Below, piece by piece: positions 24,374-38,648 of a stretch of 64,000 nt of DNA; position 1 is the stretch's first letter, and every line of letters starts with the position of its first letter. The DNA is from Pseudoalteromonas sp. 3D05 (GTDB lineage: Bacteria > Pseudomonadota > Gammaproteobacteria > Enterobacterales > Alteromonadaceae). The position numbers and the translations under genes are program-made. Below the pieces are notes generated by a model. The model was given only the letters and a program-made list of their open reading frames with translations. It was not told the origin of the DNA and did not search any database. Where the stretch lies: positions 46,755 to 110,754 of the forward strand of contig NZ_PDUS01000010.1 of assembly GCF_002723455.1 (NCBI RefSeq), written 5' to 3'.

Positions 24374-24463
24374 TGGCGGTGAGGGAGGGATTCGAACCCT
24401 CGTTAGGGATTAACCTAAACACACTTTCCAGGCGTGCGCCTTCAGCCACTCAGCCACCTCACC
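24374..24463 (-). tRNA. tRNA-Ser (anticodon GGA)
   Basis: On the leftward strand the 90-base sequence begins GGTGAGGTGGCTGAGTGG and ends CCTCACCGCCA with encoded CCA. The anticodon loop CTGGAAA gives GGA, and a long variable arm typical of serine tRNAs follows. The acceptor stem GGTGAGG/CCTCACC pairs fully. Confidence 0.96.
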
Positions 24464-25777: not shown

Positions 25778-25853
25778 TGGTGGGTCATGATGGACTTGAA
25801 CCATCGACCAATGGATTAAAAGTCCACTGCTCTACCAACTGAGCTAATGACCC
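25778..25853 (-). tRNA. tRNA-Lys (anticodon TTT), copy 1
   Basis: 76 bases on the leftward strand, GGGTCATTAGCTCAGTTGGT at the 5' end and ATGACCCACCA at the 3' end, with encoded CCA. The anticodon loop CTTTTAA gives TTT. It is identical to the two other copies at 25922 and 26086. Confidence 0.97.
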
Positions 25854-25921
25854 GCTCTTGATCTACTTTGAAGTAGGCACTGCGTAAATCCGCCGATTGA
25901 ACCATTCAATATTAAAAAGAA

Positions 25922-25997
25922 TGGTGGGTCATGATGGACTTGAACCATCGACCAATGGATTAAAAGTCCACTGCTCTACCAACTGAGCTAATGACCC
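25922..25997 (-). tRNA. tRNA-Lys (anticodon TTT), copy 2
   Basis: Identical in sequence to the copies at 25778 and 26086. The spacers between copies share a CGTAAATCCGCCGAT segment, which indicates that tRNA plus spacer was duplicated as a unit. Confidence 0.97.
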
Positions 25998-26085
25998 GCT
26001 CTAATGCTACAAGTTAATGTAACTAAACACTAATACGTAAATCCGCCGATAAAAGACCACTCTATTCTTACATGATAAGAATAGA

Positions 26086-26161
26086 TGGTGGGTCATGATG
26101 GACTTGAACCATCGACCAATGGATTAAAAGTCCACTGCTCTACCAACTGAGCTAATGACCC
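26086..26161 (-). tRNA. tRNA-Lys (anticodon TTT), copy 3
   Basis: Third identical tRNA-Lys gene, first in the direction of transcription among the intact copies. All three probably form one precursor transcript downstream of cpoB. Confidence 0.97.
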
Positions 26162-30104: not shown

Positions 30105-30531
30105 TACTTCCTTCAAATGATTCTGTCATTAGACCAACCGAAGGAACACCTGCATTTTTTAAGAAATCCATCAATAATAAAACCTCTTGATAAGACACTT
30201 TGCCAGAGCCTTTAATCATCACAGGTGTCTCTGGGTTCTTCATTAATTGCAATTTAATCACAGCTGCAACATCGAGCGCTTCCATCGGCTCTTCTGGGTT
30301 TGTGCCTACACTAACATAATACTTACCTTGCGCATCTATAGACGCAATAATCGGCGGTGTATCTTTAGTATCAACCAGATCAGATTCTTCCATCTTTGGT
30401 AAATCAACTTTTACGCCGTGTGTAATTAACGGCGCGGTTGCCATAAATATAATAAGCAATACCAGCATGACATCGATGTAAGGTACTACGTTGATCTCAG
30501 CAACAGGGCGACGTTTATTACGCTGATACAT
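30097..30531 (-). CDS. tolR: TolR proton-channel subunit
   Basis: 144 residues, ExbD/TolR family. One membrane helix near 17-37, [20 protein letters not shown], contains the essential channel Asp. The periplasmic domain follows ([20 protein letters not shown]). It overlaps tolQ by 14 bases and tolA by eight, consistent with coupled translation. Confidence 0.96.
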
Positions 30532-31219
30532 TCGCTTTTGCCTCTATTTGTGTAGCTGCTTGACGGTGTAAAATATTCGCAAACTCTTCCATAAAGTTAA
30601 TGTAGTTTGATTCAAGCTTTTCTACTTTATTAGAAAAGCGATTGTAAGCAATAACAGCCGGAATGGCCGCAAATAGACCCATCGCCGTTGCAATCAATGC
30701 TTCAGCAATACCTGGAGCAACCATTTGCAATGTCGCTTGTTTTACTTCACCCAATGCAATAAATGCATTCATGATGCCCCAAACAGTACCAAATAGACCA
30801 ATGTACGGACTAATTGAACCAACCGTCGCTAAAAAAGATAAGCTAGATTCAAGTTTTTCAATTTCACGTGAAAGTGCTACGCGCATCGAACGGTGCGTGC
30901 CTTCCATTACAATACTTGCGCTTTGAAATGATGTTTTTTTATGGCGTGCGAATTCTTTAAAACCTGCGATAAACAATGCTTCAACACCCGTCACTTGGCT
31001 GCGAGAAGAAATTTCATTGTAAAGCTTACTTAGATCAATGCCTGACCAAAATTTCTGTTCAAAACGTTTTGCATTTATTAGCGCATCTGAAATTGCTTTT
31101 TTACGCTGAAAAATAATTGCCCATGACATAATTGACATACCCACTAGCGACAACATCACTAACTGTACCAATACACTTGCTTCGAGGATTAAATCTACAA
31201 AATTAATTCCTGATCCCAC
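30518..31219 (-). CDS. tolQ: TolQ proton-channel subunit
   Basis: 233 residues, MotA/TolQ/ExbB family, with three membrane helices: near 12-32 ([20 protein letters not shown]), 137-160 ([21 protein letters not shown]) and 170-195 ([23 protein letters not shown]). The conserved Thr of the third helix and the GLFGTVWGI motif are present. First gene of the operon here; ybgC, which often precedes it, is missing. Confidence 0.96.
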
Positions 31220-31705
31220 AATAAACTCCCAATTCGATTTCTTGTTAAGTACGCATTTTATAATGTGCGAGTATGACCAATGAAATAGTCAATAGTTCAG
31301 GCTAGTGTATCCACTGTGTCGTTCACTGACAACGATGTTGCTACGAATTAGCAGCAAAAAACGGTGAAAACCCAAACTTGCACTTTAATAATGTGTATCT
31401 GATTCTAAAATAACCACTGCATTTCAAGCGCATTGAACTTTAAGTTTGCTCTAAGTGCGCTTATTTATATATAAAAAACAACTAAAACACGCGCTTTATT
31501 CACATTTGGTGCATAAACACGCAAAACAACAGTTAATCATTCATGCTGCAAAAAATAAACTAATCATAAAGAGTTTTAGCTATTATTAATAAACCAATAT
31601 ATTACAACACCCTACAAGTACATATAAGATATAAAGTTTAAAAATAATTCAATGAATTATTTTATCGCATTATTTTTTTTAATCCGAAAAAGAAAATTTT
31701 CTAGT
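31220..31705. other. AT-rich non-coding DNA upstream of tolQ
   Basis: No convincing coding frame is visible on either strand. The tolQ promoter must lie in this region. The stretch next to 31700 is very AT-rich and could act as an UP element for the small-RNA promoter that follows. Confidence 0.5.
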
Positions 31706-31734
31706 TTGAACAAAAAACAACTTTTGCGTATTAT
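31706..31734 (+). promoter_or_regulatory. Sigma-70 promoter of candidate small RNA
   Basis: TTGAAC (31706-31711) and TATTAT (31729-31734) are separated by exactly 17 bases and preceded by an AT-rich tract. This is the best sigma-70 promoter in the gap, points rightward, and lies about six bases before the inferred RNA start. Confidence 0.7.
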
Positions 31735-31739
31735 TCTCA

Positions 31740-31922
31740 CATACCGAGCTGGCGCAGTAATAACAAAAGTTATTAAGCACTGTTCTTAGCAATATGATTC
31801 TGATTTTTCGTATTGCATTGCTTAAATGCCCCCATGATAAAACATGGCTAATTTAAGCTGTATACCCTGGATTACTTCCTTCAACTTGTTGTTTACCCGC
31901 ATTCTTATGCGGGTTTTTTTTT
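31740..31922 (+). ncRNA. Candidate structured small RNA between ruvB and tolQ
   Basis: A unit of about 180 bases with its own promoter and a strong terminator, on the strand opposite to both neighbours. Three stems are visible: GCAATATGA (31789-31797) with TCGTATTGC (31808-31816); GCTTAAAT (31820-31827) with ATTTAAGC (31851-31858), enclosing CCATG (31832) with CATGG (31843); and the terminator ACCCGCAT with ATGCGGGT followed by eight T. A pyrimidine-rich single-stranded stretch lies before the terminator. No open frame of note. I do not recognise a known RNA family; 6S, tmRNA, GcvB and Spot 42 do not fit. Confidence 0.65.
31895..31922 (+). terminator. Terminator of candidate small RNA
   Basis: An eight-base-pair stem, ACCCGCAT with ATGCGGGT, a TCTT loop and eight consecutive T. 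It is a textbook intrinsic terminator for rightward transcription, with no rightward protein gene upstream to use it. Confidence 0.85.
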
Positions 31923-32226
31923 GCTTAAAAAAACTTTATCAATATTGGCACATACGATATAGGCTGCTTGCTTAACAGTGAGTGAACTAACACTCGTTGA
32001 TTACTCAATATAGCGTAATATACCCAACCACCCCAAAATGCAGAACCCAGGGTTTCACTCGGGCTTACTTTCAAAGCGCTACTTTGCAAGAACGGCCACC
32101 CCTTTTAAGAATGAACAACGATAAGAGAAGTAACGATGAAGTGCCCTAAGAGTTGGTGTGAGGCGAGTAAGATTAACAGTCAAAATTGGTATACAAGTGG
32201 GGTTGTTGCATTAATGACTACTTAAA
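31923..32226. other. Non-coding DNA with an intergenic-repeat fragment
   Basis: No coding frame is supported. A segment at about 32018-32045, beginning TATACCCAACCACC, resembles the reverse complement of the end of the repeat at 1830-1893, which reads TATACCCATACCACC in that direction. A further stretch near 32115, ACAACGATAAGAGAAG, resembles ACAACGATGAGAGTAAG in the same element. This looks like a diverged copy in the opposite orientation. Confidence 0.4.
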
Positions 32227-32296
32227 CTGAACTCTGGATAATAAATAACTTTTTATTTATATCAATACTTTAGTGTATCTCTTAACCAGAGTTCAG
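32227..32296. repeat. 70-base inverted-repeat structure downstream of ruvB
   Basis: CTGAACTCTGG at 32227-32237 is the exact inverted copy of CCAGAGTTCAG at 32286-32296, and inside it ATAAATAA faces TTATTTAT. It begins 31 bases past the ruvB stop. It could be a terminator-like structure for ruvCAB or a short inverted-repeat element; no target duplication is obvious. Confidence 0.5.
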
Positions 32297-32326
32297 GTTA
32301 CTTAAATTAATACAACCTGGGGAGGT

Positions 32327-33334
32327 TTAATCTTTCTTGGGCAATAAACCAAAGTGCGAATACGCAATTTCTGAGACAATACGCCCTCTTGGCGTTCGTT
32401 GAATAAACCCTTGTTGAATTAAGAATGGTTCAATCACATCTTCAATCGTTTCTTTTTCTTCGCCAATAGCCGCAGCCAAGTTATCTAAACCGACAGGGCC
32501 ACCCATAAACTTTTCAATAATGGCGAGCAAGTATTTACGATCCATATAATCAAAGCCACTTTTATCTACATCAATCATATTTAAGGCAAGCTCTGCTACG
32601 CTAGCATTTACAGTGCCGTCTGATTTAACTTGTGTGTAGTCGCGGACCCGGCGTAATAGCCTGTTGGCAATACGAGGAGTGCCTCTTGAACGTTTAGCAA
32701 TTTCTATTGCACCATCTTCACACATTTCTAAATCTAAATAATGTGCTGAACGGCCCACAATAGTTGATAAATCAGCAACTGAATAAAACTCTAAACGTTG
32801 CACAATACCAAAACGGTCGCGAAGTGGTGATGTTAGTGAGCCTGCACGAGTTGTTGCGCCAATTAAGGTGAAAGCAGGTAAATCTAGCTTAATAGAGCGC
32901 GCTGCGGGGCCTTCACCAATCATGAGATCAAGCTGGTAGTCTTCCATTGCTGGGTAAAGGATTTCTTCAACCTGCGGGCTTAGTCTGTGAATTTCATCAA
33001 TGAACAACACATCACCTTCTTCAAGGTTCGTCAAAAGCGCCGCTAAATCCCCAGCTTTTTCAAGTACAGGGCCTGATGTGGTTTTAATATTTACCTTAAG
33101 CTCGTTGGCAACAATGTTAGCTAACGTTGTTTTACCAAGTCCTGGTGGCCCAAAGATCAATAAATGATCAAGTGCCTCAGCACGCGTGCGTGCAGCTTCA
33201 ATAAATATTTCCATTTGCTGTTTTACATGGGGCTGCCCAGTATAATCAGCCAGCAACTTTGGCCTAATGGCGCGATCAACAACGTCTTCGTTACTTTGCT
33301 CGCTTGCGTCTATAAGACGATCCGCTTCAATCAT
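32327..33334 (-). CDS. ruvB: Holliday junction helicase RuvB
   Basis: Hexameric AAA+ motor that drives branch migration with RuvA. 335 residues, full length. Walker A is [17 protein letters not shown] near 59-75, Walker B is [13 protein letters not shown] near 107-119, sensor [16 protein letters not shown], and the C-terminal winged helix ends [13 protein letters not shown]. It follows ruvA by seven bases in the ruvCAB operon. Confidence 0.98.
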
Positions 33335-38571: not shown

Positions 38572-38648
38572 CGGTATGTGGCGCAGCTTGGTAGCGCACT
38601 GTCATGGGGTGGCAGGGGTCGAGAGTTCGAATCTCTCCATACCGACCA
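38572..38648 (+). tRNA. tRNA-Pro (anticodon GGG), island insertion site
   Basis: 77 bases beginning CGGTATGTGGCGCAGC and ending CATACCGACCA with encoded CCA. Anticodon stem CTGTC/GGCAG closes the loop ATGGGGT, giving GGG. The 3' portion from the anticodon loop onward is repeated exactly at 58080, showing that an integrative element used this gene as its target and rebuilt it on entry. Confidence 0.96.

Follow-up and report, generated by a model that had tools for sequence, protein, structure and literature searches.

A conserved small RNA gene beside tolQ in Pseudoalteromonas carries a GcvA-type operator and may stand in the place of GcvB

Introduction

What kind of gene occupies the spacer between tolQ and ruvB in Pseudoalteromonas sp. 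3D05, and which regulator could control it? The window, i.e. the whole stretch of 64,000 nucleotides that was analysed (contig NZ_PDUS01000010.1, positions 46,755 to 110,754), had been annotated from its letters alone. This first-pass annotation described an orphan small RNA (sRNA) gene in the spacer, with promoter, stems and terminator of its own. Our analysis leads to GcvA, the glycine-responsive LysR-type regulator, and to the sRNA GcvB. The GcvA operator is given as ATTAG-n5-CTAAT (earlier ATTA-n7-TAAT); at E. coli gcvB two such repeats, IR1 and IR2, are centred at −65 and −43, and glycine is the inducer (PMC5002191). According to a 2022 paper, gcvB and gcvA always lie together (PMC9409037).

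Results

A structured RNA between tolQ and ruvB

The conserved unit spans approximately 31669–31922 on the plus strand and comprises an operator, a promoter, three hairpins, a pyrimidine-rich 3′ stretch and a terminator, flanked by the divergent tolQ and the convergent ruvB (Table 1). The first-pass annotation had located the unit correctly but let it start at the −35 box, about 37 bp downstream of the GcvA-type box at which the conserved unit begins. The promoter with 17-base spacing that it described is present, and a scan of 31000–32700 returned one terminator-like site, at 31895–31914 plus a T run. In this A+T-rich spacer the two scans alone are at chance level, with 6 promoter-like sites against 6.0 and 1 terminator-like site against 1.1 expected from shuffles, and the case for a gene therefore rests on fold and conservation. 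The exact promoter-element string ATTTTCTAGTTTGAW was found in 17 of 60 genomes, which means little because the pattern demanded four T's. The first-pass annotation saw no reading frame, and none is conserved: the longest frame starting with ATG, GTG or TTG has 2–41 codons over 36 sequences, and no shared peptide was visible by eye.

Table 1 Position of the features of the sRNA locus in the window
Feature	Position	Strand	Basis or remark
GcvA-type operator IR1, ATTA-n7-TAAT, ATTATTTTTTTTAAT	31669..31683	+	centre 31676, −65 from the inferred start
Second, half-conserved operator, IR2-like	31691..31705	+	CTAGT half-site 31701–31705; centre 31698, −43
Sigma-70-type promoter, TTGAAC-17-TATTAT	31706..31734	+	promoter scan; spacing in relatives by eye from alignment
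Inferred small RNA, ~180 nt	31741..31922	+	start inferred from −10 box
Hairpin SL1, basal GAGC/GUUC, variable apical stem	31746..31785	+	fold and pair counts
Hairpin SL2, GCAAUAUGA/UCGUAUUGC	31789..31816	+	pair counts
Compound hairpin SL3, GCUUAAAU/AUUUAAGC outside CCAUG/CAUGG	31820..31858	+	pair counts
3′ module CCCUGGAUUACUUCCUUCAACUUGUUGUUU, candidate pairing region	31865..31894	+	most conserved part of the RNA (alignment)
Intrinsic terminator, ACCCGCAU-UCUU-AUGCGGGU, U run	31895..31922	+	terminator scan; pair counts
tolQ, divergent neighbour	30518..31219	-	TIGR02796, 296 bits (cut-off 221)
ruvB, convergent neighbour	32327..33334	-	NF000868, 532 bits (cut-off 282)

The predicted fold of the RNA (31741–31921) has −50.4 kcal/mol compared with a mean of −32.7 for dinucleotide shuffles (z −4.7; none of 200 shuffles as low), and it contains the compound stem GCTTAAAT/ATTTAAGC outside CCATG/CATGG that had been noticed in the letters. 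A 226-bp query matched the locus in all 36 Pseudoalteromonas genomes, our own included (E ≤ 1e-4), and found nothing at E below 0.006 in 24 genomes of other families. In all 36 genus genomes tolQ adjoins the sRNA gene divergently, and ruvB follows within the fetched piece in 33; no ruvB is seen in L024, whose piece stops where its contig does, nor in L039 and L042. Across the genus the 5′ end of the RNA is conserved, the hairpins change by compensation and the 3′ module is highly conserved, with a shortened form in L041–L043. Each single-sequence fold shows hairpins plus a terminator, with differing local folds. From the plain alignment of 36 sequences RNAalifold recovered only SL2 and the terminator; SL1 and SL3 were too variable for the aligner, which misplaced them. 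With 18 sequences RNAalifold also paired the 5′ end of the RNA with the UUGUUGUUU end of the 3′ module in a weak helix rich in G-U, and some single folds pair the same parts, so that the module is not wholly free.

For the pair counts, 29 sequences, of which 28 are distinct, were aligned by fitting them to a covariance model; both partners change in 22 of the 36 pairs. The count omits the seven most divergent of the 36 sequences, and the fitted alignment, whose model was built from 14 sequences, leans towards the structure. Its covariation score of 0.332 exceeded all 500 shuffles (mean 0.136) as well as slid structures (at most 0.132), while further pair types were not above shuffles (171/500). 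On a structure-free alignment of 14 sequences, scored with a structure given by hand, the covariation score (0.176 vs 0.090 shuffled) and the share of paired cells (93.1% vs 88.2%) were again reached by none of 500 shuffles; both-side-changed pairs (119/500) and further types (496/500), two of five measures, were not above them. In the 29-sequence fit, 88.5% of the basal and 77.3% of the apical cells of SL1 are paired, both-side changes occur in six of nine modelled pairs of SL2 and in six of the eight outer pairs of SL3, and the terminator stem is paired in 100% of its cells. The stems are kept by compensating changes in relatives, which the first-pass annotation had named as the support to look for. 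The sRNA gene encodes a real, evolutionarily conserved, structured RNA, and its conservation together with its covariation lends strong support to the proposal of a complete sRNA gene.

Downstream of the terminator, in the part of the spacer before ruvB, there is also an imperfect inverted repeat (32223–32300, TAAACTGAACTCTGG.../...CCAGAGTTCAGGTTA, 25-nt arms, 84% complementary) whose core has no second copy within the window. It could be the remnant of a small mobile element or a hairpin on the ruvB side.

A GcvA-type operator upstream of the RNA

Ahead of the −35 box, TTTTCTAG is invariant in all 36 alignment rows, and the second operator position holds a CTAGT-type half-site, read as CTAG in 36/36. 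The centres at −65 and −43 reproduce the spacing of E. coli gcvB, with IR2 as a half-site only (PMC5002191). We built a matrix from 25 distinct GcvA-type boxes of gcvB loci in other families (32 of 33 loci; L128 was dropped). On both strands, it ranked the site upstream of the sRNA first in the locus in 35 of the 36 genus loci, with centres from −65 to −67; the exception, L014, has ATTA-n7-TAAT with a different middle. The gcvB loci themselves bear a very similar string, e.g. CATTAGTTTTTTTTATCTGA in L047, and their box is centred at −65 from the RNA start of the model in 19 of 32. In 12 of 16 loci that come from the family's other genera, the top-scoring site of the upstream interval ranked first in the locus; these include L079, where the matrix picked a site other than the ATTAGGTAAACTAAT palindrome further upstream. 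The remaining four have a perfect ATTAG-n5-CTAAT (L072, L084, L090) or 9 of its 10 letters (L077).

The exact pattern ATTAGTTTTTYTWAT occurs at 16 sites in six genus genomes, compared with none for the reversed control. It lies upstream of gcvA in 6/6 and at the sRNA in 5/6, the copy in the window being one base off. Of five further sites, two adjoin a gene that we take to be clpB-like, one precedes a glycine transporter gene (PF03458) and two lie elsewhere. The boxes at the glycine transporter gene and at the presumably clpB-like gene (L440 at G019:C10:176499, L433, L437) are in other genomes of the genus than ours and make both genes candidates for new members of the GcvA regulon.

GcvA is encoded in our genome (NF008352, 464 bits, cut-off 288) with the same box upstream, on another contig than the sRNA and with no gcvB adjoining it. 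Only ~108 bp separate gcvA from the next gene upstream, presumably kdsA as read from its protein, a spacer too small for a divergent gcvB, and a covariance-model search beside this gcvA gave no sRNA match. The description as an orphan holds insofar as Rfam 15 at gathering thresholds gave no match to the sRNA; the conserved operator upstream had been overlooked, and it makes the gene less of an orphan than first thought. The new element is this GcvA-type operator, recognised by its sequence, upstream of a conserved sRNA and at gcvB spacing. Over the whole window, Rfam 15 at the gathering threshold returned five tRNAs only, none at the sRNA; they lie at 25781–26161 (−), 24377–24463 (−) and 38572–38645 (+), three in tandem with equal scores and two more.

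Distribution of the RNA and of GcvB

An exact motif scan returned 94 stretches, and the 80 listed all belong to Pseudoalteromonas, Alteromonas, Salinimonas, Lacimicrobium, Aestuariibacter, Planctobacterium or one Alteromonadaceae MAG. In a sample of 295 genomes of the order, the covariance model made for the full-length RNA matched 84 at E ≤ 0.1, many of them weakly and with unrelated sequences on inspection. Two such cross-matches, L074 (G115) and L086 (G253), are presumably RyhB-like genes (GACATTGCTCACATTGCTTCCAG), L074 also with what we take to be a Fur-box-like palindrome. The match in G307 (22.1 bits) was spurious, and the 3′-module model found the syntenic locus there instead. In the 22 genomes of the family outside the genus, the syntenic gene has tolQ and ruvB in 19 and tolQ only in one; G195 and G229 gave weak matches only.

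The model of the 3′ module alone matched 53 of the 295 genomes at E ≤ 1e-4 (families f1 21, f6 19, f20 6, f15 5, f7 2), 24 of which had contributed sequences to it. The matches in f7 were dropped because the GcvA box is absent in 3/3. Of 26 fetched loci of f6, f15 and f20, 23 contain a box that has 9 or more of the 10 letters. This level is attained by 2.8% of shuffled windows and, among 179 other windows taken from these loci, by one; in the remaining three loci the box has 8 letters, as many as 27% of shuffled windows reach. In f20, tolQ and ruvB flank the RNA in four of six loci, and tolQ lies within the fetched flanks in 5/15 loci of f6 and 0/5 of f15. These three families, too, have RNAs that combine this 3′ module with the box.

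GcvB above the Rfam cut-off was found in 72 of the 295 genomes, only in families f5, f8, f9, f10, f12, f18 and f21, and in no sampled genome of the four families that bear the sRNA. Not one of the 53 genomes with the 3′ module is among these 72, while ~13 would be expected if the two were independent; since the families are few, this complementary distribution amounts to a handful of independent events and not to 295. At the six GcvB loci whose neighbours were examined (L045, L047, L273, L274, L276, L277), gcvA adjoins GcvB.

Comparison with GcvB and other sRNAs

The sRNA shares with GcvB (RF00022) an ATTAG-n5-CTAAT operator at about −65 and a weaker one at −43, a sigma-70-type promoter, a length of ~180–200 nt, a 5′ hairpin, a terminator, a CUUCCU motif and a short G/U-rich stretch. 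The latter lies beside the terminator in the sRNA but between the first two hairpins in the Rfam model of GcvB. A permissive scan matched the GcvB model to the sRNA in full length at 24.8 bits, below the gathering threshold of 42. In a search of 60 relatives with stricter filters, by which weak matches can be lost, the listed matches of this model in the 36 genus genomes, up to 37.8 bits, all lay off this locus; one listed match elsewhere in our own genome had 22.9 bits. The 24.8-bit match therefore carries little weight, and we rejected GcvB membership on its basis. A scan of 20 family-member loci saw GcvB once (23.6 bits), and nowhere in 24 family genomes does a GcvB match exceed the cut-off.

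The R1 seed core TGTTGTGTTTGC is exact in all 32 GcvBs compared (one of 33 loci was too short and was skipped) and in none of the 36 sRNAs, which retain 8–10 of its 12 letters, compared with 7–10 in shuffled copies. The R2 core ACTTCCTGTA is exact in 28 of 32 GcvBs, with 9 of 10 letters in the other four. It is exact in 0/36 sRNAs; 32 of them have 8 of its 10 letters (shuffled copies 6–8), and ACTTCCTTCA is present in 29. The sRNA lies in the tolQ-ruvB locus, beside tolQ in 36/36, and not divergently beside gcvA, the placement given for GcvB (PMC9409037). As score, place and both seed cores fail, we do not file the RNA as GcvB, but it probably works like GcvB. Twelve weak GcvB-model matches on contigs C89–C197 of G014, several of them no more than 30 bases from where a contig begins, are perhaps a repeated element.

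A pyrimidine-rich stretch immediately before the terminator is also found in anti-hemB (RF02837, Burkholderia) and mmgR/suhB (RF00519), RNAs of another lineage for which we know of no GcvA operator. Their matches were repeated but all sub-threshold (at best 38.3 bits for anti-hemB, threshold 49.5, and 28.2 for mmgR, threshold 41) and driven by the pyrimidine stretch plus terminator; both identities were rejected. Intergenic sRNAs of the same genera are the Csr sRNAs Pf1–Pf3 of Pseudoalteromonas fuliginea (PMC11882849) and Aln1a–c of Alteromonas, the latter all within one 404-bp region (PMC5864184). These differ from our sRNA by many GGA motifs (25, 21 and 9 in Pf1–Pf3) and by titrating a protein (PMC11882849). 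By eye, 31741–31922 contains a single GGA, not the many of the CsrB/RsmX type.

Possible targets of the 3′ module

Conservation within the RNA is highest in the pyrimidine-rich stretch that precedes the terminator, which is what a pairing region should show, and the first-pass annotation's pairing with Shine-Dalgarno sequences stays a prediction. The last 27 nt of the module have a mean P(unpaired) of 0.61 over the 36 sequences, below 0.5 in six, and promoter, terminator and U run accompany this region. A search with the 18-mer complement of the module (at most 3 mismatches) gave no excess of long complementary sites: 9 non-self sites vs 7 for the control in our own genome, and 81 vs 111 in 14 other genomes. 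Sixty of the 81 were fetched, and 8 lie at starts, 44 sense-internal, 5 antisense and 3 intergenic, counts that are confounded by the SD-like letters of the search pattern.

Three sites in our own genome lie at or just after translation starts, those of an aspartyl protease (PF13650, 22.9 bits over a 100-residue piece, under the cut-off of 24.3), a TonB-dependent receptor and a CapC-family membrane protein. Their duplexes of −21.4, −15.0 and −25.7 kcal/mol are equalled by 2, 9 and 0 of 46 start regions of the window (mean −12.0, sd 4.0). The only recurrent candidate is the start region of an aldehyde dehydrogenase gene, matched in 3 of the 14 genomes and with orthologs in 18 of 22 genus genomes searched. 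Over 17 orthologs (one, with its start misplaced at a contig end, was dropped) the mean predicted duplex is −18.7 compared with −12.5 kcal/mol for shuffled modules (0/400). It stays a candidate because the duplex in our own genome reaches no more than −16.1, and 7 of the 46 window starts do as well. At the end of tolR and the start of tolA (30104, minus strand) there is a perfect 14-bp complement of the module, which shrinks to 13 bp in the sister genome G005 and does not exceed 8 bp in any other genome examined; tolA was rejected as a target since the pairing is lost beyond the sister genome. Overall, the target predictions are only suggestive.

Discussion

We propose, with a probability of roughly two in three, that the RNA is a trans-acting base-pairing sRNA under GcvA control and fills the role of GcvB in its clade. 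In the presence of abundant glycine, GcvA would bind the operators at −65 and −43 and activate transcription of the sRNA. The 3′ module (CUUCCUUC plus UUGUUGUUU, beside the terminator) would then pair, presumably in dependence on Hfq, with CA- and purine-rich translation start regions, and this pairing would repress mRNAs for nutrient uptake and metabolism.

The best reading of the locus is an sRNA in GcvB's place, which could have taken that place either through replacement or through extreme divergence coupled with relocation. Replacement we hold at somewhat below even odds: Pseudoalteromonas, Alteromonas, allied genera and three neighbouring families would have lost canonical GcvB and handed the output of GcvA to an unrelated sRNA, mostly at tolQ-ruvB, in a non-orthologous replacement that kept transcription factor and operator. 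The other route, a true GcvB ortholog that has changed past recognition and left gcvA for the tolQ-ruvB interval, we consider rather unlikely. It would account for the shared operator and spacing, the similar size, 5′ hairpin and terminator, the full-length sub-threshold match and the likeness of ACUUCCU to the R2 core; the module of one f15 genome (G113), GUGGUUGUGUUG, even looks R1-like by eye. Against it, the listed genus matches of the GcvB model lie elsewhere and some score higher, the model saw GcvB in one of the 20 family-member loci, the R1 core that every compared GcvB has is missing from every sRNA of the genus, and the gene does not adjoin gcvA.

The remaining explanations deny either the regulator, the mode of action or the gene itself. 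LysR-type boxes resemble each other and the box is A+T-rich, so a conserved sRNA whose box serves another LysR-type regulator, or none, would make the link to GcvA misleading; we regard this as improbable, given the rarity of the exact pattern, its presence upstream of gcvA itself in all six genomes, the spacing as in gcvB, and the first rank under the gcvB-trained matrix. An RNA of the CsrB/RsmX kind, acting by protein titration and not by base pairing, would fit the GGA in hairpin loops of some relatives and the CsrA-titrating sRNAs known from the genus (PMC11882849), but one GGA in the window copy compared with the counts published for these, and a most conserved part that is pyrimidine-rich, leave it very little room. 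Hardly tenable is the notion that there is no gene and that an A+T-rich spacer shows hairpins and a promoter by chance: it agrees with the chance-level promoter and terminator scans and is already contradicted by conservation in 36/36, covariation and the operator.

GcvB is a well-studied global sRNA, and in the clade studied here regulator and operator persist with a different RNA at a different place. If the proposed role is true, the locus offers a clean case for studying the replacement or rewiring of regulatory RNAs, and it would provide a major group of marine bacteria, in which our searches found no GcvB, with an amino-acid sRNA. Our literature search found no paper joining GcvB with Alteromonadales, or GcvA and a small RNA with Alteromonas. 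Among papers on GcvB with Pseudoalteromonas or Shewanella none was about such an RNA by its title, and a 2026 review from the GcvB and Shewanella literature, searched for terms, names none (PMC13414033). The primary transcriptome of Alteromonas comprises 127 reported chromosomal sRNAs (PMC5864184), and the sRNA described here may be among them without a name.
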